Origin: Diacronema lutheri
Lineage: Eukaryota > Haptophyta > Pavlovophyceae > Pavlovales > Pavlovaceae
Length of the DNA: 64,000 nucleotides
Direction of reading: 5' to 3'
Assembly: GCA_019448385.1 (NCBI GenBank)
Contig: JAGTXO010000026.1
Span: 404,528 to 468,527 of the forward strand
Shown here: in pieces, positions 32,394-61,149 of the stretch
Position numbering within the stretch: position 1 is the stretch's first letter
Layout of the letters: each line of letters begins with the position of its first letter
Position numbers and translations under genes: made by a program
The notes under the pieces: model-generated
Seen by the model: the letters and a program-made list of their open reading frames with translations, nothing else
Databases searched by the model: none
What the model was told of the DNA's origin: nothing

Positions 32394-32525
32394 CTACTGC
32401 AGCTCAAACGTATAGATGGTCAAGCCAAATCCGATCAGGGGCACGATCGCGCCCCGAGTGCAGCGCGGGCCGTTCGGAAGGACGTCCTTGTGAGGGAGCT
32501 CTTCGCGTTTGGCGAGCGGGGGAGC
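32394..32525 (-). CDS. possible 3' exon of a small single-pass membrane protein, no local start codon
   Basis: The frame ending at 32394 reads ...REELPHKDVLPNGP then a hydrophobic helix (GAIVPLIGFGLTIYTFELQ) and stop. It has good coding-like composition and resembles the tail of a small mitochondrial inner-membrane subunit, but I cannot name it. There is no ATG on this strand in this frame for at least 300 nt upstream. Its first exon is therefore missing, or is separated by an unseen intron or by the mobile element that begins just upstream. The start coordinate given is approximate. Confidence 0.3.
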   Translation of the reverse strand, partial: APPLAKREELPHKDVLPNGPRCTRGAIVPLIGFGLTIYTFELQ

Positions 32526-32814
32526 ACGACGCGCAGCGTTGCTGCGGCGGCGTGCGGGCGGCGAGCAGCGGTCGGGCTGCTCGCGACGAGGCCGGAGCAG
32601 ACGGCGCCGTGGCCGCCGGCGCAGGTGACGCGCGCCGACGAGCCGTAGCGAGCGTCCGTGATCCGCACGGCGGTTGGAGCGGGCCGGCTGGTGCGGCGCG
32701 CTCGGCCACGGGTGGCGGCGTGCACGGTCGTGCCGCGCGCGGCACGCGTCGCCAGCCGCGCGCGACCTGGGCAGAGCCCGCAAAGCGTCGACCGCTGCGC
32801 GGCTCGGCCGTGCG
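32526..32814. other. 3' flank of the Fanzor gene, no gene recognised
   Basis: This sequence lies between the Fanzor stop (32815) and the small membrane-protein frame. TnpB/Fanzor guide RNAs (omega RNA) are normally encoded across the nuclease gene's 3' end into the element's end, so this is the place to look for one. No structure was computed. Confidence 0.3.
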
Positions 32815-35590
32815 TCAACGCCGGCCGCGCTTCGGCCCGCGCGCGCTGCCGCCGCCGGCACTGGCGCTGGCAGCTCCGCGGGCGGGGGTGCGGGCGCGAG
32901 AGCCGCCGCCGCCACCGCCGCCGCGCCCGCCGCCGTCGTCGCCACCGCCGTCGCCGCCGCCGCCTCCCCCGCCGTCATCGTCGTCGTCGCCGCCGCCGCC
33001 TCCGTCGCCGTCGCCGTCGCCGTCGCCCTCGCCGCCGCCGCCGTCGCCGCTGCCATCGTCGTCGTCGTCGTCGTCGCCCTCGTCGTCGCCCTCGTCGTCG
33101 CCGTCGCACTCGTCGTCGCAGTCGTCGCCCTCGCCGTGCACCATGCGCTCCTCACGCTCCCACACCTCGCCGCGCGCCCACCAGGCGAGCACGAGGGCAA
33201 AGCGCTCAGGCGTCGACGTGGTGTCGCGCCCGGCCGCGTGCGCCGCCATGTCGTGCACGTCGTAGAAGATGTTGCGCGCGGCGTTGTAGTCGCGGTGCAC
33301 GGGCTTCTTGCCGCCGTTGCACGCCGGGCAGATGACGAGCGCGTGCACCGTGCGCGTGCCGCCCTTTGCCACGGGCAGGCGCGGGTTCTGCGCGAGCTCC
33401 GCGCCGCAGCGCTGCAGCCTGCCGCCCTTGGCGAGCCGCGGCATCGAGCAGTGCATCGACGTGTACGGCTCGGGCACGAAGACGGCCGCGACGCCGCGCC
33501 GCCGCAGCTCGCGCAGCAGCCCCACCTGGAAGGCGGGCGGCGCGCCCTTGGGCTGCGCGCCCTTGTGGTCGCGCAGCCACTTGCCCACGCACACGAGCAG
33601 CCGGTCGCGCGTCACGCCGTCGACACAGTGCGCCGCGATGAGCGCCTCGGCGACGCGCGCCGCGTTGGACCGCCCGCCGCTGTCGCGCCGCCAGCGCTCC
33701 TTCCGGCGCGCCGGCGCGTCGTACACGTGCTCGGCGGCGCGCTCGCGCACCCGCGCGCTCTCGCGGTGGAAGGCGTGGAACTCGCCCTCGCCGAGCACCT
33801 TGGCGCTGTGCGCCTCGCCAAGCCGCGCCTCGTCCGCCTCCACGCTGAACTCCTCGCCGCGCCCGTCCTTGCGCACGCGCCGCCGCGCCGCGTTGGTCTT
33901 GGCCGTCTCGCGCGCAAAGCCCGCGGCGCGCGCGCGCGCGCGCTGCGTGAACTGCCGCCAGACGGCCGCCCGCCCGACGTGCGCAGAGTAGGTGGTGATG
34001 TTGCCCATGTTCGGGTCGGCCGCGACGACGACCGCCGCCTCGACGTCGATCGCCCGCCGCAGCTCGGAGCCGAGCGCGACGGCGATGCGCCCGTCCGGCC
34101 GGCGCCAGCGGTGCAGGACGCCCGAGCCGCCGGCCGGCGCCTGCGCCTTCGGCACGAGGACGGTCCCGACGGCGTGCACGGCGACGCCATCTGTCACCAC
34201 CGACTTGACGGGCTGCCGGCCCGGGAGCGGCACGCGCGGCAGCGGCGCGAGGCCAACCCACGAGCGCCGCGCGTGCCACGGCAGATCGACCGGCGGCCGC
34301 TCGCGCCCGGCGTAGTCGAAGACGCGGTTGGAGATGTCGAAGCGCGTCGCAAAGACCGCGTACCTGACGCGCACGTCCGACATCGGCGGGGTGTTGCCGT
34401 TTGTGCCTGTCCACTTGATCGGCTCGCCATCGTGGTCGCGCAGGTCCAGCGCCTTGAGCCGCGCGCGCAGCTCCTTGCGCTCGTCATCCGAAAGCGTCAC
34501 CCAGATGGCGCTCGCGGCGAGGCGCACGTTGCGCGGCACCTGCGCGCAGCGCGCGGCGCGCGAGCGCGCGGGCGCGTGACCAACCTGGCCGCGGGGCGGC
34601 GCGCACGGCGGCGGCGCGCGCGCTTGGGCGCTCGGCGGCGGCAGCGGCAGCCACGCCTCGCGCGCACATTGTGCGTGCGCAGCGGCGCCACATTGTACCG
34701 CGGCGGCCGTCCGGTCAGCTGCGTGTGGATGTGCGCGAGCCGGCAGAGCAGCGCCTGCCCCTCGGCCACGTGCTGCAGGGTGCGGATCTGCACGAGGAAG
34801 TAGCGCGTCGTGTGCCGGTCGTAGTTCCACCTTTTCGTGGGCGTGCACTTGTAGTCGATCTTGTGGAGGACCATGTCGGGCAGGTGGCGGTCGAGCGCGG
34901 CGGGGCAGCCGACGCGCGCGCCCTCCACGTCGCCGCGCAGCAGCCGCTCGCACAGCTCGCGCACGCGCGCGTTTCGCTGCATCTCGGGCAGCGCGACGAG
35001 CGCCTCGTCGCGCTCGACTGCCGCGCGGACGACGTCGCGGAGCAGCCCGTTCACGACGCGCGATGGATGCATCAGGCACGCGGTGGACACCTGCGTCGCC
35101 TCCGCCTCGAGGATCTCCAAGAGGCCCACCGCGCAGACGGGCTGGACGCCCTCGGCCATCTCGCCGACGGCGCGCGCCGTCGCCGCCTTGGTCTGCGCGG
35201 CGGCTTGCTCGGCGGGCTTGCCTCGGGGCGCTGCACCGTACGTGCTCTCGTCCTTGTGCCAGCCGATGGCCGAGAAGATCGCACGGACGGTTCCCTTGTC
35301 CATCGTGGTCGACGTGTGCACGCTGGTCGACGGGCCGCCCGACGCCGCGCCGACGGCCTGCGCGCTCGCCACCGCAGCCTCGTCGCGCACCACCTTGTTG
35401 ATGACGCGGTACGCCTGTGTCGTGAGCCTGTGCACGGCCGCCGCGATGCGCCGCAGCTCCTTCCGCGCACCGGGCTGCGCCGTCACCGCCTGCGGCCCCG
35501 CGTTGAGCGTCGAGCGCTTGACCACGAAGCCCGGGAGCACGCTGACGCGCGTGCGCGCCGTCGCGCCGCCGGCGGCGCGCGCGCTCGGCG
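32815..35590 (-). other. Fanzor (TnpB-like) RNA-guided nuclease region
   Basis: C-terminal region of the giant protein, spanning the last intron (34667-34540). The RuvC-like core has D5814 in VVAADPNMGN (RuvC-I), E5996 in VFVPEPYTSMHC (RuvC-II) and D6056 in VHRDYNAARNIF (RuvC-III). Zinc-ribbon cysteines occur in SMHC, LQRCG and ICPAC. This is the TnpB/Fanzor arrangement: omega-RNA-guided DNA cleavage in characterised relatives. All three acidic residues are present, so cleavage is plausible. Helical sequence before the core (LTTQAYRVINKVV...) is compatible with the REC/WED part. Whether it is made alone or as part of the giant protein is open. Confidence 0.85.
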
Positions 35591-38500
35591 CAGCGGGCTC
35601 GTCCACGCGCGCGCGCTCGACGCCGCGCGCGCGGGGAACGCTCGGCGCGCGCGCGCCCGCGGCGTCGCGCGCGCTCGCGGCGGCACCCGCCGCGGCGCGC
35701 TTGCCCGCGGCGCCCGACTCGCCGTGCGCGCGAAGCGGCGCCGACGCCAATGCCGACGCCGCGCCCGCGCCGCCGCTGCCGCTGCCCGATACGCCCGCGC
35801 GCCGCTTCTGCTCGTCGCGCGTCTTGCGGAACTGGGCGACGAGGTCGCTGCTCACGTTGGCCTCAGGCTCCCACGTGTCGGCGCTCTCGTCGTAGCCCCG
35901 CCACCTGATCCGGAACTGGAACGTCACCTTCTTGCCCGCCTTGCGGCGCTCGTCGACGACCGCCTCGACCTCGTACGTGCGCGCCTCCTCGTCGACGCTC
36001 GCGCCCGCCGCGCTCGCGCCCGTGTCCGGCCACCCAGCGACCGTGCCGCCCAGCCTCTCGGCGGCCGCGCGCAGCTGCCGCTCGCGCTGGGCGGCCGCGG
36101 CGCCTCGCGCGACCAGCGCGGGCAGCATGCCCGCGCCGCCCGCGAGGCCGTGCGCGCCGACGCTGGCGGTCATCAGCGCGTCGAGGCACGCGAACGTTGC
36201 GAGCGCACGCGCGCCATCGTCGCCGCCGCGCGGCTGCGAGCGCACGACGGGCGATGGCCGCGGCTCCCCCTCGGCCGCGAGCAGCGGCCAGATCGCACTG
36301 GCCAGCGCGACGGCATGCGCGCCGACCGCGACGGCCACGTCCGCGTCGAGCGGCGCAAAGTCGTAGCGCACGAGCGCGGCCGGGCGCGAGTCGTCCGTCG
36401 GCCGGTCGGCGACGAGCAGCCCGACCGGGCGCGGCGGCTCGCCGGACGGCGCGGCGACGGGCACGCAGAGGAGCACGACGAGCAGGCGCGGCGTGCCGCC
36501 GAGCAGCGCGCGCGCGGCATCCGCCCCGTCGGCTCCGCCGCGCGCGGCCGCGGCGAGCAGCTCGGCCGCGCGCGTCGGGCCCAGCGCCGTGCGCGCGTCC
36601 TTGCGCGCGCGTGCGCGGGCCGTGTACGCGGCGCAGGCGTCGTCGAGCACCGCCGCGCTGGGCGCGGTGCCAGTCGTCGCCCACGCGCGCAGCGCGTCGC
36701 GCACCCGCGTGACGATCGCCTGGTCGACCGCCGCCTCGCCGGCAGCGTGCGCCGGCGCGCACGCCGGCGGTGCGGCGGCAGGCGCGAGCGCGGGCGCGCC
36801 GTCGGCGCCGTCAACGCCGACGGCGCCGTCGGCGCGCCGCCACGCGAGCTTCGCCTCGATCTGCTGCCGGACGGCGTGGCAGTGCCGGTCGATGCCGCGC
36901 GCGTCGTCGAGCGCGGCCAGCGCGTCCTCAGCGGCGGGACGGCCGCTCGCGTCCGCGACGGCCTGCAGGCAGAGCAGCGCGGCCGCACGCGCGTTGCACG
37001 CGCTCTGCGGCTCGGGCGCGAGCGCGAGCTCGAGCTCGAGCGGCGACGCGCCTCGCGCCGCGGCGATCGCGTCCATCAGCACGTCCAACCGCTGCACCAG
37101 CGCCCTGTGCGCGTCGCGCGGCGCGCCCGTCGACGGCGCGCGCGAGCGCGTCGCCAGGAGCCCGAGCGCGCGCGCCGGCGCGCCCGCCGGCGTGTGCAGC
37201 ACGAGCAGCGCCGCGCCCGCCAAGCTCGCGTTGCGCGTGACGAGCGCGAAGATGCGCGTCGCCTCGTGCGCGCCCACCGACGCCCAGATCGCAGCGCGAT
37301 CGGCGTCCGTCTGCGCGTCGCACAGGTCGCGCACGTCGTCCGGCGCGAGCAGCGCGCCGCCGCCGGCGGAGCGCGCGACGATCGCCCGCGCCTCCGCCAC
37401 GAAGACGGCCTGCGGCAGGTCGGCGTGGCGCGCGTCGACGATGGCGCGCGTCGCGTGCACGCCGAGCTCCACGCCGCGGTAGAAGGCGCGCGCGTTGGCC
37501 GCGCGCGCGTGCGCCGGCCGTCCGTCCGCGTTGCGCCTCGCGCGCGCCTGCTTGCTCGTGCGCGCGAGGCCGTCGCGTGGCGGTGGCGGCAGCGTGGCGA
37601 GGAAGCGCGCGGCGGGCGGCGGCGCGCGCACGCCGCGCTGCCGCCGTGCGATGGCCGCGAGCCGCCGGCCCGCCGCGCTGCCGCCCGCGCCGACGTGCTG
37701 CCGGCGGCCGAGCGCCGCCGGTGGCGGCGGCGGCGGCGGCGCGGCGGCGGGCGGCGGCGCGACGGCGGGCGGCGGCGCGGCGGCGGGCGGCGGCGCGGCG
37801 GTGGGCGGCGGCGCGGCGGCGGGCGGCGGCGCGGCGGCGGGCGGCAGCGGCGGCGGCGCGGCGGCGACGGCAGCACCAGTCGGCTTGTCCGCCCACGCAC
37901 CCGAGACTCTGTCCCAGACCTTGCCCCATGGCGCGCGCCCACGCGGCCGCGCGAACTGCCCCGGCTCGAGCGCCTGGCCGCGCTTGGCGGCGGCGGCGGC
38001 GGCAGGGGGCGGGCGGCCGGCGCGCCAGTCGAAGACAGGTGCAACCGTGGCGGCAGGCGCCGAGTGCCGCGCGTCGGTCACAGAGCGCGTGGTGCGCGCG
38101 GCGACCGTGGCACGCCTGGCGGGCGGGCGGTGAGCAGCGCCCGCCGGCGCGCCGGCGGGCGCGGCCGCCTCGAGCCCGGCGGAGGCGCCGCGCTTGCGCT
38201 TGCGCGTGCCGCCGCGCGTGCGCCTGCGCGCGCGCCCGCCGCGCGCCCGTTCGGCCTGCGCGTCGCCAGCCGCGTCGCCGGCCGCGTCGCCGCGCCGCAC
38301 GTAGACGACCGCGAACGCCTCCTCGCCGGTCCCGTCGACGCCGCCGCGCGCGCGGCGCAGGACCGACCGCCACTGCAGCCGCCGCGCGCGGCCGGGCTCG
38401 CACGCAAACCAGCGCCCACCGCGCCTGACGACGGCCACAAAGTCGTCGTCGCGCCGCCCGCGCCGGCGCGTGCGCAGCAGCACGCACTGCACGTCGAGCC

Positions 38501-41500
38501 AGCCCTCGTGCCAGTCGGCCGTGCTGGGGGCGACGCGAATCGACTGCGGGAGCTCGACGCCAAAGCCGGCGAGGCGCACGATGTGCGCGACGATGACGCT
38601 CGAAATGGCGGGGGCGCTCGACGGGTCGCCCGCTGCAGCGAGCACCGCCCCGCCCCAGTGCTCACGCGTGACGCAATCCGCGTCCTCGACGTGCACGTGC
38701 GCCACGCTCGCGCCGAGCTGGTGCAGCAACGCGCAGATGTCGGCGTCGACCGTCCTCTCCTCCTCGGCCGCCTCGGCCGTGCCGCGGGCGGCGGCGTCGC
38801 CTGTCGGCTGCCCGAGGTACGCGATCGCCCGCTCGACGGCCGCGCGCTCCGCACGCGCTGCGCTGTCGATCGCCGCATTGCCGACGGGCGCGCGCAGCGC
38901 CGCGATCGCGTCTTGCAACGCCGTCGCGTCGCCCGTCGCCGCCGCCGCCGTCACCGCCGCCGCGCTCGCGGTGCCGTGCGCGACGGCGTGCAGCGCGGCG
39001 GCGCGCGCGGCGGGGATGCGCCCGTCCAGCGCGAGCACGAGCGGCGGCCCGGCCGGCGTCTGCTGCCGCCGGTGCCGCCGGCTCGCAGCCGGGTGGTCGG
39101 CGCGCGCGCGCTCGAGCCGCGCGCGCCGCTCGACGACGCGCGCCCAGAAGGCCTGCACCCTCGGCTGCGCGAATGCAAGCCAGCCGGCGCCGCGCGTCAC
39201 GACGTGCACGACGATCCGGTCCTCGTGCCTGAGGTACTGCACGTAGAGCGCTTTGCTCACGCCGAGGACGTGCATGCCGAGCTGCAGCTGATCGCGGTGC
39301 GGCTGCGGCGGCCCGTCCTCGTGCGCCGTGGCGCCCGCCTTGGTGAGCGTCTTCACCTCGACGAGGACCTGCTCGTTGTTTTCGGGGAGGATGGCGAGCC
39401 CGTCCGGCGAGAAGGCGAACGGCGCGCTCTTGTCGTGCGGGTCCGCACGCACCATCGGCAGGTTGCACACGACGGTGATGCCGTACGCGGCCGCCAGCTT
39501 GCGCAGCGCGACGGCCTCGCCGAGGATGCCCGCGGTCGTCGCCTTGGTCCGCACCTCGCGCCGCCGCCGGTGCACGTACTCGTCGGTGAGCGTCTCGTGC
39601 GCGACGCCGGCGTTGTCGTTCACGACGTCGCCAACCTTGCTGCCCGTGACCTCCTCCCATCGCTCGTCGTGCCAGCGCGGGCTGCGCTGCGCGGGCGCGC
39701 CCGCGCCGACGGCGTCGAGCACGCGGCGCAGCGCTGTGCCGTCGGGCGCAGCAGGCACGCGCGCGCGGTCCTGGGCCTCGCGAGCGTCGAGGACGCGGCC
39801 CGTAGTGGAATCTTGGGGTAGGTCGAGCTTGCTCGCCTCGCCGTAGCGGCTCTCCAGCTGGCGCGGTGCGTCGGCAGGGCCGCCGTCCGTGCGCGCACCC
39901 GACGCGCCCGCCAGTGCACGCGGCGCAGCGTCCGAGGCGCCCGCCGCGCCCGCGCCGCCGCCAATCGCGCCAGCGCACGCGCGCGCCGCGACCTGCGGAC
40001 GGCCAGCCGCAGGGACCTCGTCCGCTCGGCCGGCCGCTGCGTCGGCCGTCCGCTTGGCCACCTCGCGCACGTCTCCGAGCGCGAGCGTGGCTGGCGCCGT
40101 CCAGCTCCCGTTGCGTTTGTCCCAACATTTGAGCAGCCCGCCAAGGAAGGGCGTGCCCGTCGGGCGGTCCTCGGGCACCTCCGCCAGGATCGCGTCGACG
40201 CGCAGCGCGGCCGCCACATCGCAGAACGCGCGCGCGGCGCGCGCCATCCGCTCGGCGCGCGCGCCGCCGTCGTCCGCCGCGCGGCGGATGGCGTGGCTCA
40301 CGTGCGCGACGCGGAGCGAGACGACGGCGTGCGCCGGCGCGTCGGCGCCCGTGCCGAGCGTGTGCCGCCGGATGGCCAGCTGCCCATCGCCCATGCGCGG
40401 CGGCAGCGACGCGCACGCCGCGACGGTCGTCGTGCCGGCCGCGCTGTCGCACAGCCAGCTCGCCTCGCCGCCGCCCGCAAACTCAAAGGTCGCGAAGCCC
40501 TCGCGGCCGAAAAGCGCGACGAAGTGGTCGAGCACCGCCTTGTTGATCGCGCGCGCCGCCGGCCGCGTCGATGCGCCGCGGGCAGCGCCACCCGCCGCGC
40601 CGCGCGCATCGCTGCACGTCGCAGGGCAGGTGCAGCCGGACGCGCGCACGCCGTCCGACCGCGTCCGCGGCAGCTCGAGCTCGCGCACCTTGGGGCAGAA
40701 CCAGAGCGGGTTGGACGCCTCGAGGCACAGCACGACGAGCCGCCCGTCCGTGCCGGCCAGCGCGCGCGCGTCGCGCAGCAGCTCGACGGCGAGCTCGGAC
40801 GTCGCCGCGTGCACCGCCGGCTCGCCCGTCGCGCGGTCGGGCGGGAAGAGGCCGCCGCCGACGAGCGGGCTGGGGCAGCGGCCGAGCATCACGAGAAGCG
40901 GCGGCGGCGGCGTCTGCGGCGCCTGCTGCCCGACCGCAGCCGCCGTCAGCCCGGCCAGGTCGGAGCTCGTGCGGAGGGCCTTGAGCGCGACGCGCGAGCC
41001 GGTGCCCGCCTGCTCGGAAAACGTGGCGAGCATGGCGCACGTGCTCGCCCTCGCGCCGCACTGCCAGCTGACGCGCGCGAGGAGGCCTTCCAGCGTGTCG
41101 TTTTCGCGCGGCCGCGTGACCGCGTCGAGCGCCGCCGGGCCGAGCTGGAGGCTGCCGGGCGTGACGCACAGCACCGCCTCGTGGTAGGCGCGCAGCAGCT
41201 CCCTCGGCAGCTGCTCGGCGGGCGTCGCCGCCTGCCCGCCCACCCACCGTGCACCGTGGCCGCCGTCGCCCGCGCCCGCGAGCCGGACCGCCGGCCCGCC
41301 CGTGATCGCCGAGGTCGGTGGCGTGCCGAGCGCGTCGACGAGCGCGCGCACGGGCGCGACACGCCTGCGCGCAGCGTCCGCGCCGACGGCGAGCGCGGCG
41401 ATCTGAGCGCCGTCCCATGCGCGCTCCCTCGCGTCGTCCCGCGCGGCCGCCGGCGCGGCGCCCGGCCGCGCGCCGGGCGGCACCGCGCACGCCGCCGCGA

Positions 41501-43388
41501 CGACCTCCGCGCGCGCGCCGGCGGCGTCGGGCGCGTGCAGCTGCGCGAGCGCGCCAAAGAGCGCGGCGGCCGAGCGGTAGCGGCCGTGCGCCGCGACGAG
41601 CGCGTAGAGCACGCGCAGCGCGGCCACGCCCGCCTGGTCGGGCGCGTCGCCAGCGATTTGCTCGACCTCCCACGTGCGCGTGGGCGGCGGGCTGCCGTCG
41701 GCCGGGTCCGGACGCAGCGCCCACGCGCGCTCGACGATCGCGTTGAACACGCCGTGCGCGGCGCCCTCGTCAAACTCGGCGGCGCCCGCCGCGTGCGCGC
41801 ACCACCCGTGCACGCGCGACGTGGGCGCGTCCACGGCGCGCTGCACGACGAGCACCGCCGGCCGGTCGACGCAGCCGAGGCTCACCGCCGCGTGCTTGCC
41901 CTCGAGCAGCGCCGCCGCCGCAGCCTCGACCAAGGCGTCATCAGGCGCGTCGCCGACGACGACGGCACAGCCGTCGCCGTACTCGGCCTGCATCGCGGCG
42001 ACGCACGACGCGACAAAGTCGCCGCCCGCGGCCGCCGCGTGTCGCGCCGCCAGCATCCGGCGCGCGATGGCAAGCCAGACGTACTCGGCCGGCGCGCGCG
42101 CGGCGCGCGCGCGAGGCGCGCCGGCCGCGCCGCGTGCGCCCGCGCGTGCGCCTCCAGCGGCCGCAACGGCCGAGGCGGCTGGAGCGGCGGTGAGCGTGCG
42201 CCGCGCGCGCTTCGCCGGCCGCGTGATGGGCGATGCACCCGCCATCGCACCGCCCGCAGCAGCCGGTGCGGCCGCCACAGCGCCCGCCGCAACGCCACTC
42301 GTCACGACGCCCGTGGCGGGCGGCGCGGCGGCGGACGTGGCCGCCTCGACGGGCGTCGCGCAACTACCGCCAGCGGTCGCGGACGCGCCCGGCGACGCGT
42401 CGGCGAGGAGGTGGCGCAGCACGCCGCGCGCGAGCGCGACTCGCACGGCGAGCGTCAGCGCGCGCAGGCGGTCGGAAGGCGAGGCGTCGCGCTCGGCGTC
42501 GGCGGACGTGGCGGCAGCAGGCGGGGCGGCGGGCGGCACGGCGGCGGGCTGGGCGGCCGCCGGCGCAACCTCGTCGGCCTTGGCCAGCCAGACGAGCCCG
42601 GCGACTGCGAGCACGACGCTGTACGCGCCGACATCGTCACCCGCAACGCGCGCCAGCCGGGCGTGGGCGTCGGCCTCGGACACGGCGACGTGGAAGAGCA
42701 CGTCGTCGCGGGCAGCTTGCTCGGCAAACTGACGCAGCTGCTTGGCCATCGTCACGCCGGCGACGCACGCCTCGCCCGCCTCTGCCTCGACCTGCTCGTC
42801 CTGGCCGATGGCGGACGCGCCGGCCTCGGCGCCAGCGTCGAGTGTCCGGCGGCGCTCGAGGGCGAAGCCACGCACACAGACGCGCTGGAGGCCGCCGAGC
42901 GCGCCCGCCTTCTCGTGCAGCGCGCACGACAGCTCGACCACCGAGTCCACGCGCCTCGCGGCGGCGCCCCCCCGCTCGCCGCGCGTGGCCGCGCGCACGA
43001 CGAACACCGTGAATTGCGCGCGCTTCGCCGCGCGCGCCGACGCGCACGCGTGCTTCAGGAGCCGGCAAAGCGCGGGCCTTTGCGCCGCTGCGCCCCGCGT
43101 GCACAGCAGCAGTTGGCCGCGCTCGTCGCCCAGCTCCTGCTCGACGGCGGCCTCGAGCGCGTCGTCCGTCAAATCGCCGTGCTCCGTCGAGGCGAGCGCG
43201 CGCGCAGCCGCGAGCGCCAGCTCGCCTGCGCCCGCGCGCCGCCGGCGGCGCGCACCGGCGGGCGCGTGCGGCGCCGACGCGTGTGACGACGCCGCCGCGT
43301 CCGCGCGCGCACACGCGGCGCGCAACGCCTCACGCGCCGAGGCGGCCGCGCGCGCCCTGGGCGCGAGCTTCAAGAACGTGCGCGCGGC

Positions 43389-43461
<73 letters not shown>

Positions 43462-46400
43462 TCGCCCGCGTCGCCGGCCGGCGGCGGCGGTGGCGGCGGT
43501 GGCGGCGCGGCCACGGCGGCGGCAGCAGCGGCGGCGGCGGCGGTGGCGGCGGCGGCGGCGCCCAGCGCGGGCGGCGGCGGCGTGGCGGCGGCGGTGGCGG
43601 CGGCGGTGACGCCAGCGGCGGCCTTGGCGCCGCGCGTCTGCGGCGGCGTTTCGGCGCGATCGGGGCTGCCCCCGCCACGCACCGCGCTCGTGACCGCGCA
43701 GACGCCGCCCGGCGCACGATCGCTGGCCGCGCCGGTCAGCGCGACGCGGAGGCGCTCGCCGACAGCGTACATGTCCGCCACGCTGAACGTGCGCGGCGCG
43801 GACGAGCAGCCCGCCGCGGCGAGCGCGTCGTTGAGCGCGCCCACTATCGCGAGGCCGCACGTCGCGCCACGCTGCGCCGCCTCGTTGAGCAGCAGCGCGC
43901 GGCGCACGCGCGAAATGTCGAGACCCGCCGCGTGCAGCGTGGCAGTTATCGCCTTGGCGAGCATGAGCGCCTGCCTGCAGGGCGACGCGAGCGTGTCGAC
44001 GAGCACCGCGTCGTAGCGATGCTCGCCCGCGCGCGCGACGCGCACAAGGCGCAACGCGGTGAAATGGCCGGAGGCGAGCTGCGCGCCGTCGTCACCGCCC
44101 GCGCCGCCGCGCTCGTCCGACGGGCTCCACACGCCGATGACAGCCTGCGTTGTCGCCTCGCTGCGCAGGCGGTGCAGCAGCGCGGCGCGCTCGGCGTCGT
44201 CCTGAAACACCGCGGGTTGCGCGGCGAGCGGCACGTGGCAGACATGCCCGCCGCCGGCCTGCCCGTGCACGCGCAGCACGACCTCGCAGCACGCGTCGAC
44301 GGTTGAGGCGAGCATGTCGCCGCTGGCGATGCGCTCCACCTCTGCCTGCGGGAGGCCGGCGCTCGCGGCGGCGGCGGCCAGCCGGCGCGCAGCCGCGTCG
44401 CCCGCCCACGCAAGCAGCGCCGAGTTGGCGGGTTGGAGGGGAAGCTCAAGGGCGGCTGGTTCGGTGGCGGTAGCCTCGTTGGCAACGGGCACGTTGGCGG
44501 TGCGCGCGTTGGCGGCGGGCCCGGCGGCGATGGCTGGTGGGGCGGAAGACGCGCCCGCGGCGGCGGGCGCGGACGCGGCAGCGGCAGCGGCTAGTGGGGC
44601 GGGGAAAACGCCGTCGGTGGCAGGCGCGGAGGCGAATGCAGGAGCAACTAGTGGGGCGGGAAAATCGGCGGCAGGCGCGAAGGCGGATGCAGCAGCGGCT
44701 AGTGCGGCGGGGAAAACACCGTCGGCGGCAGGCGCGAAGGCGGATGCAGGAGCGCCCAGCGGGGCGCAGAAAACACCGTCGGCGGCAGGCGCGAAGGCGA
44801 CAGCAGCAGCGGCCAGTGGAGCGGAGGCGCAGGGCCACGCGCGCGCCAGCCGTGCAAGCCCAAGCCGCGCGCGAGCGACGCACGCGCCGATGGCCGAGGC
44901 GGCGGCGCAGGCCACGACGTGGCCTGGCACCGGTGTGGCCAGCCGCTCGCGGGTGTGCACGTCGAGCCGCGCCCCACGCCAAGAGCGGCGGCGCGCTGAA
45001 CGGAGGCGCGCGACCCCGATCGATCCGCCCGCGCACGCGCGCGCCGGCTCAGTGTGGCCAACGCGCGCCGCTATGCAAGGCGCGCGCGCGATAACGGCGG
45101 CTGTCGGCCGTGGCGTGCGCGTGGCGGCGCCGCGGCGACGGGCGCGGCACACGAGCCGCTCGGGCGCGCCGCCGCCGCGCGGCACGATGTCGAGCAGCAC
45201 GGTCACGCCGCGCGCGCGCGCGACCGCCGTGCACGCGAGCCGCACGGGCAGCGGCGGCCCGTCCGGGCGCGCGAGCGCCGCCACCTCGGCGTCGGTGAGG
45301 CTGTGCAGCTCGCGGCGCGCGCGCGCGAACGCGGCGATGTCCGCGCGCAGCTCCGCGTCCGTGCCGAGCGCGGCACGCGCGTGCACGGGGAGCGACGCGC
45401 GCAGCGCGTGGAGCACGCCGCCGCGCGCGCCGCGCGGCGCCGGCGCGCGCTCGCGCTCAGCGCGCGCGGCGCGCGTGAGCTCGCGCACCGCGCGCGCGAG
45501 ATTGCGCCGCGCGGCCGCGACGGGAGGGCTAGGTGCGCGCGCGCGCCGGTTGTAGCGCGGCCGCGCCGAGTCGAGGGGCGGCGGACGCGGTGCGTACGCC
45601 GCGGCGCGGCCCGCGCGCCAAAAGGCCGGCGGCGGGCGCAGCTCCGTCGCGTCGACCGCGGCCGCGAGCGCGCCGAGCGCGGCGTCGCTGTCGCCCGCCG
45701 CGTCGGCCGCGTCGACGAGCACGAAGAGCGCGCCGAGCGCGCGCGACGCGGCCGCCTGCGCGGCGGTGGGGCGGGCGCAGGCAGCGACGCATGCGGCCGC
45801 CATGCCGCGCGCCGCGGCGAACGCCGGTGACGTGACGGCCGCGCCGATGGCAACGGCGGCGGCGGCGACGGTGGAGGCGGCAGCGCCGGCGATGGAGGTG
45901 GCAGCGGCGGCGGCGCTTGCCATCGCGCGGCGCGCGAGACGCGAGGCGCCACCGACCGCCGCCGCCGCAGCGCGCGCTGCGCGCGCGCCGGTGGCGCGCA
46001 TCGTCGCCGCGCCAGGCGCCGCCGCGCCGACGCCGCCGGCGCCCGCGCCGTCGCCGCTCTCGGCCGTGCAGGGCTCCGATGGCGAACCCGGCGTGCGCTG
46101 GCGCGTGATGCGCGCGCCGAGGCGCGCGCTCCGCGCCGCGCGGCCGGCGACGTCGAGGAAGCGCCGTGCGCGCGCCGCGCGCAGGCCACGCGCGCGCGGC
46201 GGCGCACCGACAGGCGCCGAGCGCCGCGGCGCGCACGCCGGCGCGTCGCTGTCGGGTTGCGCAGCGCGCGCGCGGGAACTCGGCGCGGCGTGTGCGGGCG
46301 GCGGGCGCGCGCCCGCGCGGCGCAGAGGCGCGAGGCGCCGGCCGCAGACGAGGCGTGTGCGCAACCAGGACGGCGAGGGCCGCAGGGCGCCGTCGACGTC

Positions 46401-49400
46401 GCGCATCGGCGGGCCGCGAGCCCGCCGCGCAGCCGTGCGGCGCGCGCGAGGCGCTCGGCGGCGCGCGCGCCGCACGGCGCGCGCGGCGGCGCGCACGCCA
46501 GCGACGGCTGCGGCCACGCCGCGCGCCAACACGGCCGCGGCGTGCGCCATCGCACCGAGCACGGCGCGTGGCGCGCCGAGCAAGCGCAGCAAGCGCGACG
46601 CCGTCGCGCGCGCCGGCGCACCGTGTGCAGGGGCCTCGCCAGCGCCAGCACCGACGCCGCCATCGCCGCAGCCGCAGGTGGCGTCGCCGCCGCCGCAGGC
46701 GTCGCGACGGACGCCGCCGCCGCCGAAACAACCGCCGCACACGTCGCCGCCGACGTTGCCACCCCAGCCGCCGTTGCGTGCGCAGGTGGCTGCGGCGCGT
46801 GCGTGCGGGAGGCGTGCCGTGCGGCGCGCATCACACGGGCTGCGCGACGCGAGCGACGCCGCCGGGGTCCCCGCTGCGCCAGGCGCGCCGTGCGCGCCAG
46901 CCTCGCCGGCCTCGCCGGCGCGCGGTCGCGCGCTCGCCTCGACGTGGCCGCCTCCGCCGCCATCGCCGCCGTCGAACCGGGCGGTGGAGGGCTGCCGCTC
47001 GAACCGCTCGTCGGCGTCGGCCGCCACCGCCGCCTCGCGCTCCGCCGCCGCGGCGGCCGCACGGCGCGCGTGGCGGAGCGCGCGGCCGCCGTCCGCTGCG
47101 CGGCGTGGCGGCGCGGGCGCGGGCTTCGGCGCGCGCGGCCCCTCGGCGCGCTCGCGGAGCACGGCGAGCGGCGTGCCCGTGGCGACGCTCGTGCAGACGC
47201 GCCGCAAGGCGGCGCTTACGCACGCGTGGACGACGCGCGCCGTCCGCTTGTCGGCGGCGCGCGCGGCGCGGCGCGCGGCCTTGGCGGCGGCCTTTTTGGC
47301 GCGCCTCTGCTCCGCCTGCTCCGACAGCGCGCGCGCCTGGCGCTCGGCTGCGAGCGCGTCCTCGGGCGAAACGGTCGGCCTCGGCGGCCGCGCGCGCGCG
47401 CTGCGACGCTGCGCGCTGCGGCGGTCGGACGGCGGCTGCCGCGGCGGCGAGGACGGCGAGCGCGAGCTCGGCGTGGGCGACCAATCGCCGCTGACGGTTG
47501 CGAGCGGCGCAAACGGGTTGTCGTCCCCGCGACCCGCGGCGTGCGACAGTGCACGCGGCGTCGGGCGCCGGCCGACCGCTGGCGGGCCCCACTCGGACGG
47601 CGGCTCCGAGGGCGAGCGCGCCGTCGGCGCCGCGCGTTGCGCGGCCGGCGGCGCCTCCCGGTCCAGCGCCGCCTGCTCTCTCGCCGCGGCCTGCTCGTCA
47701 CCCTCCGGCACGCCACGCGGCGCGAGCACCGCGGTGGCGCAGCGCGTCGCGTTGAGCAACGCCGCCTCCATCTGCCGCACGCTGGCCTTGGCGCACGCCA
47801 CACCCTCTCTCGCCCGGCGCAGCGCCTCGTGCGCGCGGCGCACATCCGCGTCGGCATCTTCGCGCATGCCAAAGTGCGCCTGTTGCAGCCGCAGGTCCGC
47901 AGGGCGCCCCTGCGCGCGAGGGGCACGGGCGCGGCGGCGCGCAGGTGACGGAGCTGGCGCGCCGTTCTGCGCTGCGCGCACGCCAATCGACGGGCGCGCG
48001 CGCGGCGGGGCGCGCGCGCGCGCGCGCGCGCGCGCTGCCTACCCAGCCGCCGGCCGGCTCGCGCGAGCGCGCCAGCTGCTCCGCCGCCTCGGCGTCGAGC
48101 ACGCGCTGCTGCGCCTCCTCCTCGCCCAGTGCAGCGAGGTGCAGCCGGCGGGCTGCCTTGCGGCAGTTGCCCTCCGCCTTGCCCACGGCCTTGCGCGCCG
48201 CGTCGACGGGGTCGTCGTTGGCTCTGGCGCGCCTGCGCTTGCCCTTGTCGGCGGGCGGCGGCTTGGCGCGCTGCAGCGTGCCGAGCGCGTCGTCGGCTCC
48301 GCGCGCGGCCGCCCGCGGGCGGCGGGCCCCAAAAAGCGCACCGGTCGCCGTGCGCGCCGCGCAAGCAACGACCAGCGCTGACATGCCGGCGAAGACCGCA
48401 CCGCCCAGCGCCACGGTTGCCACGATGCGCAGCGTCCCGTGCGCAAGCTGCGCTGCCTCCGCCGCTTTGGCGGCCTCGCGCGCGCGCGCATCGGCGGCTC
48501 TCATCTCGTGCAGCAGCCCGGCCGCGCCGCTCGCGCCGTCGCGGCCGCGCGCGAGCTCGCACAGCACCGCCGCCGCGCGCCGCGTGGGCTCGCGCGCGAG
48601 CAGCTGCGCGCCGCCGTCGGGGCGCAGCTTCTCAACGAACTCGACAAACGTCGCGTCGCGCCAGAGGGACATGCGGAAGGCCCTGTGCACCGCCCCCTCC
48701 TGCTCGCGCATCCGCCGTGCCGCCCGCCTGCCGTCGCGCGCGTGCGCGTGCGCGGCCGCGTCGAATCCCGCGACGCCGCGCTGCGCGTCGCGCGCGGCCG
48801 ACGACGGCGCCGCCGCGCTGCCCGCCAAGGGCGCCGCAGCGGCGACGCGCGCGTGCGGAGCGACGGGATCGCCGGCGGCCGGCGGCTCGGCGCGCTGCGG
48901 CGTGCCGTTTGCTCCGCGCGCGGCCGTCCCGGGGGAGATGGCCGCGATGGCGCCGCCAGCCGCGCCGCGCGCCAGCCACGCGCATAGGCTGCCGACGAGC
49001 TCGCCGAGACCCCCGACGGTCGCCGCGGCGGCGAGTGCGCCGGGCTTGCCGGCCGACAGCGGCTCGCGAGCGTCGTCGTCGCGGCCGCCGGCACCCGTCT
49101 TGGCGAGTGCGTCGCGCTCGCCCTCGACGCCCGCCACGACCGCCGCCCCTCCGTCGTCCGCCGCGCCGGCCGCGCGCGCGGCCGGGCGCAGAGGAGGCGT
49201 GCCGGTGCAGCCGTCTCCGCTCGTCTTCGCCGTTTCCTCCACTTTGGTCACTTCGTCGCCACCTGCGCCATCTCCGACGCCGGGGCCCTTGGTCACGCTT
49301 GCCGCCATGCGCGCCGTGCCCGCCGGCCAGCCCGCCGACTGCTCGAGCGCGGCGGCGAGCGGCGCGACGCGCGTCGACTCGGGCGCGCTCTCGTCATCGG

Positions 49401-51717
49401 GCTCGAGCGCGTTGTGCAGGCGCGCGAGCGCGCGCTCGACGGCCGCGGCGCCACTGCCGGGGGCGCGGCTCGCCGCGCGCACCGCGCGCCGCCAGGCCGG
49501 CGCGAACATGAGCGCCGGCTCGAGCGCCGCGAGCGCGCGCGCCTCGCGCGCGTCGCTCGCGCCGAGGCGCGGCGGCACGCGCGCGGCTCCGCGCGGCGCG
49601 GTGCCTCGGAAGCGTGGGCTCAGCGTGTAGGCGAGGTGCTGCGGCACGCCGCGCGCCTCCGCGCGCGCGCGTCCGTCCTCGACCTCGCGCCGCGCCTTCG
49701 CGATCGCCGGCGTGGCGCGCGCGAGCCAGTCGGGGTCGGCGGGCAGGTGGATCACGACGAGAATCGGCGCCCAGTCCAGCCGCGGGTTCTTGTGACGGTC
49801 GGGCACGACCCACACGAGCAGCACCGTGCCCTCCGCGCCGCACGCCGCCTCGTAGATCCTGGGCTGCGAGCGCCAATCGGGCCTGACGCGCAGCGCCCGC
49901 GCGTGGTCGATGGCGGCGGCGCGGTCGCCATTGAAGTGAACCGTCGTCACCTCGCCGATGACGGACCGGCCGGACCGCCAGCAGAACACCGCGTCCGCCG
50001 ACCCGCCGGCGATGGCCGCGAGCGATTCGGGCGCGGCGAGCCGCGGCAAGCCCTCGAAGGCGGCAAAGTCCTCGTGCGCATTGTACACGCCGCCCCAGCC
50101 GTCGTGCGCGTACGCGCGCGCGGCCGCTCGTACCGCGCGCGGCTGGTTCTCCACGCCCGACGTCATGTGCCATGTCGTCCCCGCGAAGCCGGGCTCGCCC
50201 AGCTCGGCCCGCACGACGGTACCGTACCCCGCGCCCTGCGTCGGGGCGGCGAGGTGGTGCATGCCCGCGCCGGTCACGCCCTCCGTGCGCTGCCGCGTGA
50301 CGATCGTGCCCGTCGCGTGCGCGAAAAGCGTGTCGACCACGGCGGGCGCGCGCCCGCTGTTCGCCCGTAGCCGCGCCCTGCCCGCTTTTAGCTGCTCGGG
50401 GTCCTTGGCGTCGTACACGCGCGCGTCCGCGTCGCCCTCATCAGGCGCAGTGTAGACGCAGCGGCGTTCGAGCGGCGCCGAGCCACCGCCGTCCGCCGCC
50501 GCCGGCGAGGTTGGCGCCGCGCCCGCCGCCACCGCGCTCGTCGCCGCCGTGCCCGTCGCCACCGCCGCAGCCGCCGCGCCCGCGGGGTCGTCGTCCCCGT
50601 CCTCCGCGCCCTCCCCGTCGTCAGCGGTGGTGGCGTCGCCATCGTCCCCGTCGCCCTCGCCCCCGCCGAGGCTGCTGAATGGTCGGGGCCCCCACGCCGA
50701 GGCGGCGCGCCGCTGCGGCGCACGCGGCGGTGGCGCTCGCGACGGCGGCCTTGGCGCCGCCGCGCCGCGCGGCCTGGCCGCCGTCGACAGCGCGCGGCCT
50801 GCAGCGCCCGTGAGCGCGTCGAGCGCGGCCGTGCGTGCGATGCGGTCGTCGGGCGCGCGCAGCGCCGCCTCGACGGCCTGCAGCAGCCCGTCGGGCGCGG
50901 ATCCGCCGACACTGGCATCGCACGCCTCGGCGAGCCGCGCGGCCTCGGCGAGCCGCGCGGCCTCGCGGGTGAACGGGCCGAAGCGCCTGGCGCGGTCGCC
51001 GAGCAGAGCGCCGATGGCGGCGCGGAGCGTGCGCGCGCGGGTCTCCTCGTACGCGGCCGTCGTGAGGCGCGCGAGGCGCGCGTCCAAAGCCTTCTTGATG
51101 TCGACAAGGACACTCGCGCGGCGGCCGTAGAGCGTCGATGCGCTCGCCACGACCTCGGCCGCGACTGTTGCCGCGGCGAAGCAACACGCGGCCCCACTCT
51201 GCGGGGGCGCCTTGAAGGCATCGATGGGCGGCGCTGTTCTGCCGATGCGCTGCGCAAGCTTCTTGATGAGCACGCCGGCCGCCGTGGCGTACGCCGATTC
51301 GCCGTTGCCCAAGGTGCGCGAATCGGCGAGCAGGGCGAGCGCGGCGCCGGGCGGCGCGCCGCGCTGCGCGGGCGGCGCGAGGAGCAGGTACGCCGCCGTC
51401 CAGTGCACGAGGCCGCTGGACGCGCGGAGGCAGAGCGGTAGCACGACCACGAGCACCTGCCCAAACCGGTCCGCATCCGCGCATGCTTTGCGCAGGTTGC
51501 GCAGCGCCACCTTGAGCGCATGCTGCGAGCACCCCGTGTCGCCCACCCTAACCCTGCTCGTGCCGAAATCCGCGTAACGCAGCAGGGCGATGAGGCAAGT
51601 GGATGGGACCACGTGGGGGTGGGTATCTCCCGGCGACAGAATGGTGCTGAGGGCCAGCGAGAAACTGTCCGAGCCGCCCCGCCCGCCGGGCAAAGCGTCC
51701 TTCACGGAGTCCTCCAT
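32815..51717 (-). CDS. giant mobile-element protein: C48 peptidases, YqaJ nuclease, chromodomain, Fanzor nuclease
   Basis: Three exons, 51717-48043, 47909-34668 and 34539-32815, predict 6,213 residues. Both introns (133 nt GTAGG...CAG; 128 nt GTGCG...CAG) are phase 0. Order: C48/Ulp1-like peptidase (about 20-190); a disordered part with acidic tracts and a possible PD-(D/E)XK core near GRSVIGEVTTVHF; Ala/Arg-rich linkers; a second intact C48-like domain (about 2380-2600); decayed C48-like folds; YqaJ nuclease (about 3960-4150); Pro/Ala repeats; two more decayed C48-like folds; chromodomain (about 5198-5255); Fanzor (about 5340-6213) with an Asp/Gly-rich tail. The 13.2-kb middle exon has no stop. 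It may be processed by its own peptidases, or could be several genes whose boundaries lack stops. The separate domains are firm; the single-polypeptide model is inference. ATG 51717 directly precedes the first peptidase domain. Confidence 0.6.
35815..35995 (-). other. chromodomain
   Basis: Residues about 5198-5255 of the giant protein. TYEVEAVVDERRKAGKK, then FRIRWRGYDESADTWEPEANV and a terminal helix, is a canonical chromodomain. The aromatic positions Y, W and Y (YEVEAV, RWRGY) that cage methyl-lysine are kept. In retroelements and transposons such domains steer integration or binding to heterochromatin. Confidence 0.9.
37720..37865 (-). repeat. Pro/Ala tandem repeat (PPPAAA-type)
   Basis: GC-rich tandem repeats of about 24 nt in the giant gene encode repeated PPPAAAPP units, probably a flexible linker between the YqaJ region and the decayed C48-like folds. 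Confidence 0.8.
39120..39695 (-). other. YqaJ-like PD-(D/E)XK nuclease domain
   Basis: Residues about 3965-4155 of the giant protein. Motifs: RSPRWHDERWEEVTGSKVGD at the start, a Glu in TTAGILGEAVALR, then SPDGLAIL (D4061) and LVEVKTL (E4076-x-K4078), followed by QLQLGMHVLGV. D-(14)-E-x-K plus the downstream Gln-rich helix is the YqaJ/lambda-exonuclease pattern. Such 5'-3' exonucleases work in recombination with single-strand annealing proteins; none is seen here. Confidence 0.8.
43391..43460 (-). repeat. GCC trinucleotide array encoding poly-alanine
   Basis: About 23 near-perfect GGC (plus-strand) units encode an alanine run in the giant protein just after the second C48-like domain. It is length-unstable by nature and could vary between alleles. 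Confidence 0.85.
43740..44440 (-). other. C48/Ulp1-like peptidase domain 2 (intact catalytic set)
   Basis: In the giant protein's second exon. H2507 in SGHFTALRLV, D2530 in AVLVDTLAS, Q2571 in NEAAQRGA and C2576 in ATCGLAIVGAL reproduce the His-Asp-Gln-Cys order and spacing of Ulp1 peptidases. It is distinct from domain 1 in sequence, so the protein carries two potentially active copies. Confidence 0.6.
44590..44830 (-). repeat. tandem repeat of about 57 nt in the giant gene
   Basis: About four units, each starting near CTAGTGGGGCGGGGAAAA (44591, 44648, 44699, 44757), encode repeated ASAFAPAADGVFPAPL-type peptides. One unit is about six bases shorter, all in frame. It precedes the second C48-like domain. 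Confidence 0.75.
51130..51660 (-). other. C48/Ulp1-like peptidase domain 1 (intact catalytic set)
   Basis: Residues about 20-190 of the giant protein. The Ulp1 order is present: H105 in SGLVHWTAAYL, D132 in LLADSRTLG, Q173 in APPQSG and C178 in GAACCF. C48 enzymes cleave SUMO/ubiquitin-like proteins, and such domains recur in eukaryotic transposons. The His-Trp and Asp-Ser pairs are typical. Activity is likely on sequence grounds; the substrate is unknown. Confidence 0.65.
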
Positions 51718-59520: not shown

Positions 59521-59526
59521 GCCGCC

Positions 59527-59838: not shown

Positions 59839-60253
59839 GAAGGTGGGAGGAAGCCACCCGTATGCGCGCGTTTGAACGTGCGCGGACGGCCGTTGGCTTC
59901 GCGCCCTTTCGCCCACGGTTTGCGCGCCAACGGACCAGTCCTCCGCGGGCGCCGCGCATCGTCTCAGGGGCGGTCGGTGTGGTACGCCGCGCGCATCGTC
60001 AGCGCCGCGGCGTCGAGCTCGGCGAGCGAGGGCGCGTACGTGACGCCGCTCAGCACCTCGTCCGCGCCCGCCCTCGTCGCGCTCGCCGCCTCCGCAGTGC
60101 GCGCAGGCGGCTTCGTGACGGCACGCGAGGCCACGCCGCGCGCCGCAGGTGCCTTCGCGCGCTGCATCGTCTGTCTGCCGGTCCGACGCGCTCTGCTCTG
60201 AACGAACGGACGGCACGCCCGACGAGATCTCGTCGCGTGCACGCTCGCACAGC

Positions 60254-61086
60254 ATGTACCCCCAGAACGTCTCCGAGCTGCTGCCCGACGAGATCTTCGG
60301 CGACGAGCTGCTCGTCGACCGGCACTACCGCGTGCGCATCCTTCAGCGCGTCGCCCGCCGCCGCGATGCGGCCGAGGCCAACTTTTGGCTCGACGGCGGG
60401 CCCGCCGACTCGGTCGTCGGCGCGTGCATGTGCGGCCGAATCTACGCGCTCAAGTGCATGGGCCGGCTCGTCCGCGGCGCCCGGATCCTCGCGCTGCTGC
60501 GCAAGAACGTCGCGCTCGCCACGTGCCGCGCACACCTCATGGGCCACATGCTCCAGCGCATCGTCGGCGACAGCGGCGTCGCGCGGCTGCTGCAGCTGGT
60601 TGCAGCTCGTTCGCGAGGATCACGACACGCTCAACGCCGAGCACCAGGCCTTGGAAGCACAGCATGACACCGGCCAAGTCATGCGACGGCATGTGCGCGC
60701 GCGCCGACGCGCTCTCCAAGGACCTCGCACGGGCGCACGAGCACGCTCACAAGCTCGATGGCTATCTGGTGTGGTGCAGCGAGCGCCTCGGTGAGAGTGA
60801 CTCTTTCAACGGAGCGCTCGAGAACCTGAACACGCGGTGCAGCATGAGATGTGCTGGCTCCACGCCGAGATGTCGTCGCTCGTTGCGAGTTCGCCCGAGG
60901 CTTACGCGAACGACAGCGAGGCCACCGACTTCAAGGACCACGGCGTGTGCGTCGAGTTCGATGTCTTCAACCGCGACGGGGTCGAGGGCGCGCCCGTGCC
61001 CGCGACCGCGCCCACGAAGGCAGAGCCGGGCATCGAGTCCGAGTGCATCGCGCCCGCACAGGCAGAGCCGGGCAGCGAGTCCGAAG

Positions 61087-61110: not shown

Positions 61111-61119
<9 letters not shown>

Positions 61120-61149
61120 GGCAGAGCCGCGCACCGAGCCCAAGTGAGC

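Follow-up and report, generated by a model that had tools for sequence, protein, structure and literature searches.

The giant frame and its domains

On the minus strand of the window (the whole 64,000-nucleotide stretch of Diacronema lutheri DNA that was analysed), three exons join into an open frame of 18,642 nt, corresponding to 6,213 amino acids plus a stop. The coordinates, the strand, the two phase-0 GT-AG introns, which are predicted from sequence, and the 6,213-residue length given in the initial annotation were all correct by recomputation. In window coordinates, the features of this frame are as follows:

48043..51717, minus strand: exon 1, with its ATG at 51717; 1,225 codons
51181..51405, minus strand: Ulp1/C48-like H-D-Q-C motif 1 (protein 105-179; motif only)
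47910..48042, minus strand: predicted intron 1; 133 nt, GT-AG, phase 0, with a GC dinucleotide run inside
34668..47909, minus strand: exon 2; 4,414 codons
43854..44066, minus strand: Ulp1/C48-like H-D-Q-C motif 2 (protein 2507-2577; motif only)
39264..39674, minus strand: YqaJ/RecE-like exonuclease domain (protein 3971-4107; PHROG 434, TIGR03033, PF09588)
35823..35975, minus strand: chromodomain (protein 5204-5254; PF00385)
34668..35570, minus strand: N-terminal part of the Fanzor, from about residue 5339 (boundary read by eye, outside the profile coverage); continuous with exon 3
34540..34667, minus strand: predicted intron 2; 128 nt, GTGCGC..GCGCAG, phase 0, interrupting the Fanzor
32815..34539, minus strand: exon 3; 574 codons plus stop, with the C-terminal part of the Fanzor and an acidic tail
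33268..33507, minus strand: TNB zinc ribbon of the Fanzor together with its final RuvC motif (PF07282; protein 5984-6063)

When codon statistics were computed in 360-nt windows, the giant frame outranked the other five frames in 42 of 49 and the other two on its own strand in 47 of 49; among windows outside the training segments it was top of six in 19 of 25. The frame that wins the codon signal shifts at both predicted introns. An open stretch of 4,513 codons at ~80% GC, where the chance of a stop per random codon is estimated at ~0.9%, is far above chance expectation. The claim of one continuous frame was upheld, with 6,213 codons free of stops and a codon signal that tracks them. We infer from the sequence that both introns would be spliced and the frame made as one polyprotein.

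Two domains of the frame pass their Pfam thresholds. The Fanzor/TnpB zinc ribbon (PF07282) scored 27.3 bits against a cut-off of 26.3 (E=4e-6), and a genome-wide search with the same profile gave 31.3 bits at this locus. All 20 aligned copies keep the RuvC motifs (DP[NG]xG, the E before the zinc ribbon and RDxNAARN; a figure legend in PMC10711439 names such signatures), and the Fanzor assignment has statistical support; a comparison with solved structures gave no significant match (best 0.51 and 0.34). Just N-terminal to the Fanzor sits the predicted chromodomain, where PF00385 scored 45.8 bits against a cut-off of 25.1 (E=5.7e-12), with further matches to CDYL (8e-9) and HP1 (6.7e-7). It shares exon 2 with the Fanzor N-terminus, and the sequence between them is free of stops.

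The proposed recombination-type exonuclease was also recovered. PHROG 434 (RecE-like exonuclease), a profile without a curated cut-off, matched at 5.7e-17, and TIGR03033 matched at 5.2e-7, under its curated cut-off of 68.05. The PF09588 match stayed below the Pfam cut-off both on the whole exon (0.031) and on the piece (5.7e-4), at 20.6 bits against a curated cut-off of 22. A D...E-x-K motif is present, and the piece had no significant match among solved structures (best 0.45).

The Ulp1-like peptidases fared less evenly: the two H-D-Q-C motifs are present, but support from a C48 profile is absent. The motifs number 2 against 0.015 per shuffle, with a pattern that was tuned after the sequence had been viewed. 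Scans of the giant protein with Pfam, NCBIfam and PHROG profiles gave no PF02902 or other C48 match, and none of the nine matches in a six-frame genome search with PF02902 lay on the contig of the window (C28). An AlphaFold model of the first C48-like region, built without an alignment, had a pLDDT of 42 and was discarded. The C48-like modules may perhaps process the polyprotein.

A repeated element and its copies

The giant gene is part of a longer repeated unit; its true ends, its copy number and the PIF1 and UCH-type matches upstream had escaped the initial annotation. The remaining features of the unit are:

32410..~61839, minus strand: whole mobile element, 29.4 kb here
32410..32814, minus strand: untranslated 3' stretch with GACCATCTATAC at its end; a guide RNA scaffold may derive from it
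55619..55885, minus strand: UCH-type ubiquitin peptidase match (PF00443, 3.4e-8)
58301..58639, minus strand: PIF1-type helicase match (PF05970, 2.7e-23)
60166..61839, minus strand: 5' terminus, where coding signal is absent; most of it recurs in a second Fanzor family (one locus examined)

Probes from exon 1 and exon 2 each had at least 131 near-identical matches in the genome, and a probe from the 3' end of the element occurred 215 times (reversed control, 0). The 3' end falls at the identical position in the 17 internal copies fetched, with CTATAC at the junction in 16 and CTAACG in one. Among the 16 copies with both ends, 15 have CTATAC and one has CTAACG at the 3' junction, while at the 5' junction 13 carry TATATAGGG and three carry TATATACGG; the ends themselves read TATATA[GC]GG and CATCTATAC. 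Half of these 16 copies are ~31 kb, the longest class (31,021 bp in copy C9), and shorter forms were also found. The number of exon matches and the precise ends support a mobile element, and with moderate confidence we regard it as a young, high-copy, ~31-kb DNA element of Diacronema lutheri with the giant gene as its main gene. Some contigs begin at the 3' end of the element; that these starts reflect a telomeric location is considered unlikely, and it seems more probable that the assembly broke at the edges of repeats.

Across the 16 two-ended copies, the two flanks never match each other over more than 4 bases, whether or not they are trimmed, and no target duplication beyond TATA was found. 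Since no clean empty insertion site was found, the TATA may itself be carried by the element, as the flank of one copy (C8:74k) also suggests. Folding of the last 300 nt of the element does not exceed expectation (z -1.46). The 5' stretch matches the second Fanzor family at 97.7% and 96.4% in two pieces within window positions 60166-61779. Compared with solved structures, the frame of that family scored best against repeats of low complexity, and SpuFz1 came out at 0.6. The giant protein had no match at L051 and L052, two Fanzor loci that look divergent.

The copies were compared, as the initial annotation had proposed, and the amino-acid changes among them look neutral. Among the 131 exon-1 matches listed, 118 have an open frame of normal length (1330-1360 aa). 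All 20 aligned copies have an intact Fanzor exon and the same two ends of intron 2, the intron being 128 or 130 nt long. In these 20 copies, 3,315 exon nt hold a single indel event, of 3 nt, while 536 noncoding nt hold four (p=0.0017). Stops between the domains in other copies, named at the outset as evidence against a single frame, gave a mixed picture: among the exon-2 matches listed, 83 of 131 are open for at least 4,400 codons and 48 are shorter, and one of the 83 long frames carries a TAA inside the probe. Of 114 substitutions among copies, 27 are synonymous against 25.1 expected, a count that left out the loci of family B (L001-L008) as well as L028, whose start falls within the last stretch. 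No purifying selection is seen in these numbers, and substitution ratios were rejected as proof of selection because they are neutral. The four copies of 21.6 kb are absent from the exon-1 matches listed, and only one of them (C27) is among the exon-2 matches listed; copies that lost internal parts of the giant gene therefore seem to have spread too.

Readings of how the element moves

The mechanism that we propose is inferred, and the moderate confidence given above applies to it and to the element jointly. The chromodomain would tether the Fanzor to methylated chromatin, and a guide RNA ending at the 3' end of the element and reading into the 3' flank would be loaded on the Fanzor. The loaded Fanzor would cut an unoccupied site, consisting of TATA and then the 3'-flank sequence, the exonuclease would resect the break, and repair templated by an element-bearing copy would restore or copy the element. 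Insertion at a new site would need a recombinase or transposase, which may be hidden in a segment of the giant protein that is still uncharacterised or be provided in trans. The published TAM of SpuFz1 is CATA (PMC10432273), and Fanzor1 reRNAs run ~15 nt beyond the TSD (PMC10711439). A stronger version, which we consider quite unlikely, is a self-sufficient RNA-guided element in which one 6,213-residue polyprotein would give chromatin targeting, guided cutting and resection, with break-induced copying into TATA/guide-matched sites without a classical transposase.

Possible, if doubtful, is capture of the Fanzor and the other genes by a DNA transposon of conventional type (DDE, Crypton or a different family with TATA sites), with its transposase encoded elsewhere and the giant protein acting as cargo or as a retention helper. 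Internally shortened copies do occur, the second Fanzor family, at the single locus looked at, has 5' DNA in common with the element and bears the complementary end (GCGCCCTATATA), other repeats also terminate at GTTAGTATA, and Fanzor1 is a known cargo of several transposon types (PMC3627910). No DDE or tyrosine-recombinase domain was found in Pfam, NCBIfam and PHROGs scans of pieces, where distant ones may escape. This result cuts both ways: an unrecognised transposase would be expected if it lies elsewhere, but the partner itself was not found in the pieces scanned either. Also against this reading, the two ends of the element have no matching terminal inverted repeats by eye.

It is unlikely that the long open frame holds several genes or isoforms, so that the 6,213-residue chain is made rarely or never. 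The giant frame contains low-complexity alanine/arginine stretches, and seven of the 49 codon-statistics windows do not favour it. However, exon 2 is without an in-frame stop between any of its domains, so translation entering upstream would run through, and the Fanzor itself crosses intron 2.

A Helitron-like element is more improbable still. It would explain the PIF1 match as a remnant, the lack of a target duplication beyond TATA in the 16 copies and a Fanzor cargo as in the CRe elements of Chlamydomonas, Fanzor1 in Helitron2 being published (PMC3627910). In copy C96 the PIF1 match spans profile positions 5-218 in one frame. However, the Rep domain (PF14214) occurs once in the genome, on contig C63 and outside the element, the ends differ from 5' TC and 3' CTRR, and neither end folds notably better than shuffles (80-nt folds, z -0.67 and -1.27). 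PIF1 motifs lie in more than one frame in four of five copies (the window, C9, L043 and L044) and in a single frame in L042, and 148 of the 150 PIF1 matches scored in the genome begin at profile position 69 or later. On these grounds PIF1 was dropped as the working helicase of the window copy. Short introns could also produce such a pattern.

YqaJ nucleases, ubiquitin peptidases, PIF1 and Fanzors are also found in giant viruses, but an integrated DNA virus or its remnant is very improbable, as the ORFs scanned gave no capsid, packaging or polymerase match and two queries had no relative among viral contigs.

Relation to known systems

Several known systems share parts of what is seen here. In eukaryotic transposons that carry a Fanzor1, the Fanzor is usually a gene of its own, with some 500-1,000 residues, and a known transposase often lies next to it. 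Chromoviruses are Gypsy retrotransposons with a chromodomain, and the chromodomain of their polyprotein resembles H3K9me readers. The present element likewise would have a polyprotein with a reader-like chromodomain, but here no reverse transcriptase or integrase match was obtained and the chromodomain precedes a Fanzor. The phage RecE/YqaJ nucleases of the lambda-exonuclease family are alike in the PHROG 434 and TIGR03033 matches and the D...E-x-K motif, whereas here the domain is embedded in a giant eukaryotic frame and an annealing partner was unrecognised in the scans.

In the published Fanzor1 transposons too (Bao and Jurka 2013, PMC3627910; Saito 2023, PMC10432273; Yoon 2023, PMC10711439), the Fanzor lies close to an end of a repeated element, the junction motif is fixed and variable flank comes directly after the 3' end. 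Unlike them, the element described here is 31 kb long without a recognised transposase, and its Fanzor forms the C-terminal end of a frame of 6,213 residues, with a chromodomain and a RecE-like nuclease ahead of it. Helitron2 and CRe-1,2,3 of Chlamydomonas (PMC3627910) are likewise algal, with a Fanzor cargo, a PIF1-type helicase in the superfamily and full-length ends without target duplication, but a Rep domain and Helitron ends were not found in the present element.

Titles and abstract openings from the Fanzor, transposon and haptophyte literature yielded no description of a Fanzor, a chromodomain and a DNA-chewing nuclease in one gene. No distant protein homologue emerged among the best word-sharing candidates scored (1,370, 8,000 and 8,000). 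Two near-identical proteins were found: P0004, from an ENA contig, and P0005, from EukProt under a name with Pavlova_lutheri. The latter (425 aa) matches residues 2336-2760 of the exon-2 ORF, just upstream of the YqaJ domain; as it may derive from either RNA or DNA, it was not counted as a sign of expression.

If translated as predicted, the giant gene would fuse three activities, those of a Fanzor, a reader of chromatin and a nuclease of the resection type. If this is true, the pairing of a eukaryotic RNA-guided nuclease with chromatin targeting, and perhaps with the steering of repair, already exists in nature. Because the element is young and abundant, apparently in a culturable alga, its guide RNA, splicing and cutting are directly testable, and more than 100 natural integration sites in the genome are at hand for probing what the Fanzor does for its host element.

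The giant frame and its domains

Three long open stretches appear on one strand in the open-frame listing of the window:

47698-51735, minus strand, long open stretch
34497-48038, minus strand, long open stretch
32815-35862, minus strand, long open stretch

Joined as exons 51717-48043, 47909-34668 and 34539-32815, they give 18,642 nt, which is 6,213 residues plus a stop, with predicted introns of 133 nt and 128 nt that both read as GT...AG and phase 0. A codon table trained on five domain segments was applied in windows of 360 nt, with local base composition as the reference. By this measure the giant frame was the top of all six in 42 of 49 windows (19 of 25 outside the training segments) and the best frame of its own strand in 47 of 49, and the best-scoring frame switched at each of the two introns. 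Sequence and codon signal thus agree with the initial annotation of three exons and two canonical phase-0 introns forming one open frame, which we infer would be translated as a single chain.

The initial annotation had also placed a chromodomain, a YqaJ nuclease, a Fanzor and Ulp1-like peptidases in this frame, and the first three were recovered. The chromodomain matches Pfam at E=5.7e-12, its nearest solved chains being CDYL (8e-9), CDY1 (4e-7) and HP1 (6.7e-7). The nuclease is a RecE/YqaJ-type exonuclease, matching PHROG 434 (RecE-like recombination exonuclease) clearly (5.7e-17), TIGR03033 at 5.2e-7, below that profile's strict cut-off, and Pfam YqaJ itself weakly (5.7e-4 when the piece is searched alone, slightly below cut-off). 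The Fanzor TNB domain scores above the Pfam cut-off, and the three RuvC/zinc-ribbon motifs are undamaged in all 20 copies that we aligned over the last 3.85 kb of the element; by these profile and motif tests, the element carries a Fanzor. The stretch from the chromodomain to the Fanzor is free of stops. We read the Fanzor as starting in exon 2 and finishing in exon 3, so that a whole Fanzor would require splicing of intron 2. Its C-terminus is a long aspartate/glycine-rich tail (window 33.2-32.8 kb). The Ulp1-like peptidases fared less well: no C48 profile matched the giant protein and the Pfam C48 test failed, although two stretches carry H, D, Q and C in order, against 0.015 per block-shuffled protein, by a pattern written after the stretches were seen. 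Profile scans of eight further pieces of the protein gave no convincing family match.

Copies of the element and their intactness

The genome searched comprised 43,492,796 bases in 103 contigs; the published report on Diacronema lutheri NIVA-4/92 gives 43.503 Mb, 103 contigs and 73.25% GC (PMC8379373). Among 20 copies examined, the 3' end is identical within a few bases in all 17 that are contig-internal; for two others this end is where the contig begins, and the remaining one starts 190 bases inside. In the window the 5' end falls at about 61837, and pairing of 5' and 3' ends by position gave 16 copies with both: eight of ~31.0-31.1 kb (including the 31,021-bp copy at C9:90517-121537, on contig C9), one of 30.5 kb, two of 29.2-29.4 kb (the class of the window copy), one of 26.3 kb and four of 21.6 kb. 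The terminal 27-mer of the 3' end occurs 215 times in the genome at one mismatch or fewer (reversed control, 0), and 301-residue probes from exon 1 and exon 2 each gave at least 131 matches at 99-100% identity. If both probes hit the same copies and each copy is counted as 18 kb (exon-1 probe to 3' end), 131 of them would occupy 5% of the genome (~2.4 Mb). The 21.6-kb copies (C5:279k, C27:64k, C29:771k and C14:231k) have both ends and seemingly lack part of the giant gene. None of the four is among the exon-1 matches listed and one is among the exon-2 matches listed, which suggests that forms with internal losses have spread too. Window 59520-59839, where the 5' part of the element varies, holds an inverted repeat of 90 bp (94%) around a 140-bp spacer; extra or inverted versions of it occur in other copies.

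Several contigs stop at the element's 3' end (C1 and C12 at their first base, C8 and C14 at or adjacent to their last); other contigs have a PIF1 helicase match ~26.0 kb from their start, which points to more such edges, and fewer seem cut at the 5' end. These edges are probably assembly breaks at repeat boundaries; they may instead reflect a preference for chromosome ends.

On stops between domains in other copies, which the initial annotation had set against its single frame, the picture is divided. Exon 1 has the normal frame length in 118 of the 131 matches listed (longer in 10, shorter in 3), with a stop in the probe region in none of the 131. Exon 2 runs to 4,400-4,620 codons in 66 of the 131 matches listed and is longer in 17, making 83 at 4,400 codons or more, but is shorter in 48. 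A TAA falls within the exon-2 probe in two of the 131 listed, one of them a long frame, and a full reading of the C9 copy shows it to be broken, with exon 2 divided between two frames. In the alignment, exon 3 is undamaged in 20 of 20 copies, and all 19 that span the exon-2 tail keep it open; we attribute a stop in this tail at locus L024 to a piece that begins within the region tested. Indels number one (3 nt) in 3,315 nt of exons and four (1-2 nt) in 536 nt of intron and 3' stretch. Among 114 coding substitutions, 27 were synonymous (25.1 expected) and none made a stop (2.1 expected; P=0.12, within chance), counts that weigh against any strong case for selection. Protein-level constraint cannot yet show in copies this young, and in our reading the coding signal is older than the copy burst.

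Ends, target site and upstream genes

Of the 16 two-ended copies, 13 have TATATAGGG at the 5' junction and 3 have TATATACGG; at the 3' junction, 15 have CTATAC and 1 has CTAACG. Beyond the junctions the flanks share at most 4 bases, even after trimming, so no longer duplication is present. The TATA may have arisen by duplication of the target, may serve as a core for recombination or may belong to the element. The copy at C4:227k lies at the end of another repeat, and 39 of 41 other matches listed for that flank continue through TATA (with GTTAGTATA in all four read), so TATA can belong to the target; at C8:74k, where a copy lies beside the same repeat, the sequence points to a TATA brought in by the element. 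Short repeats at loci L073-L076 also end GTTAGTATA; some of them adjoin the ends of other repeats at TATA, and they suggest a wider class of TATA-targeting elements in the genome. According to two published reports, SpuFz1 requires CATA adjoining its target (PMC10432273), and Fanzor1 guide RNAs take in the duplication and extend about 15 nt beyond it (PMC10711439). By analogy with the Fanzor1 layout, this element is predicted to use TATA as its motif and to take its guide from the 3' flank. Folding of the 3' stretch is little better than that of shuffled sequences (z -1.46).

Between 51.7 and 61.8 kb, the profile search matched a PIF1-type helicase (2.7e-23) and a UCH-type peptidase (3.4e-8). 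In the window copy and in C9, L043 and L044, the PIF1 motifs found are spread over at least two frames; they lie in one frame in copy L042 (contig C96, PIF1 at 2724-3368), where the Pfam match covers profile positions 5-218, nearly the whole profile. Since the first matched profile position is 69 or higher in 148 of 150 scored matches in the genome, few copies seem to carry an unbroken helicase; motifs in several frames may also be explained by short introns. The element's first 1.6 kb has no coding signal by codon scoring. A second and smaller family of Fanzor elements shares it, at about 97%, at one locus (L045:3982-9680 / L046, C9:374000-393999), where the family's Fanzor lies in a frame of about 1,681 codons. 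The family has its own 3' end, with GCGCCCTATA in 8 of 8 loci and GCGCCCTATATATG in 7 of 8; GCGCCCTATATATG contains the reverse complement of the giant element's 5' end.

Proposed mechanism and classification

The giant protein might be processed by its putative peptidase modules and tethered to chromatin, where the Fanzor would make a guide-directed cut, the exonuclease would resect the break and templated repair would follow. Together, the last four steps, from tethering to repair, would retain and copy the element on a sister chromatid or homologous chromosome at sites that had lost, or never had, it. Insertion at new sites is not accounted for by these steps alone. No profile scan of the pieces made found a transposase or recombinase, and this activity would be either concealed in the unmatched regions or provided by another family.

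The canonical Helitron test failed, with Rep absent from the element and no TC/CTRR ends. In the accessible parts of the literature on Fanzor, transposon and haptophyte topics, we found no description of a chromodomain, RecE-like nuclease and Fanzor fusion of such size. The element belongs among the Fanzor-bearing eukaryotic transposons and is set apart from those described there by its frame of 6,213 residues, in which the Fanzor is fused to the chromodomain and the RecE-like nuclease.
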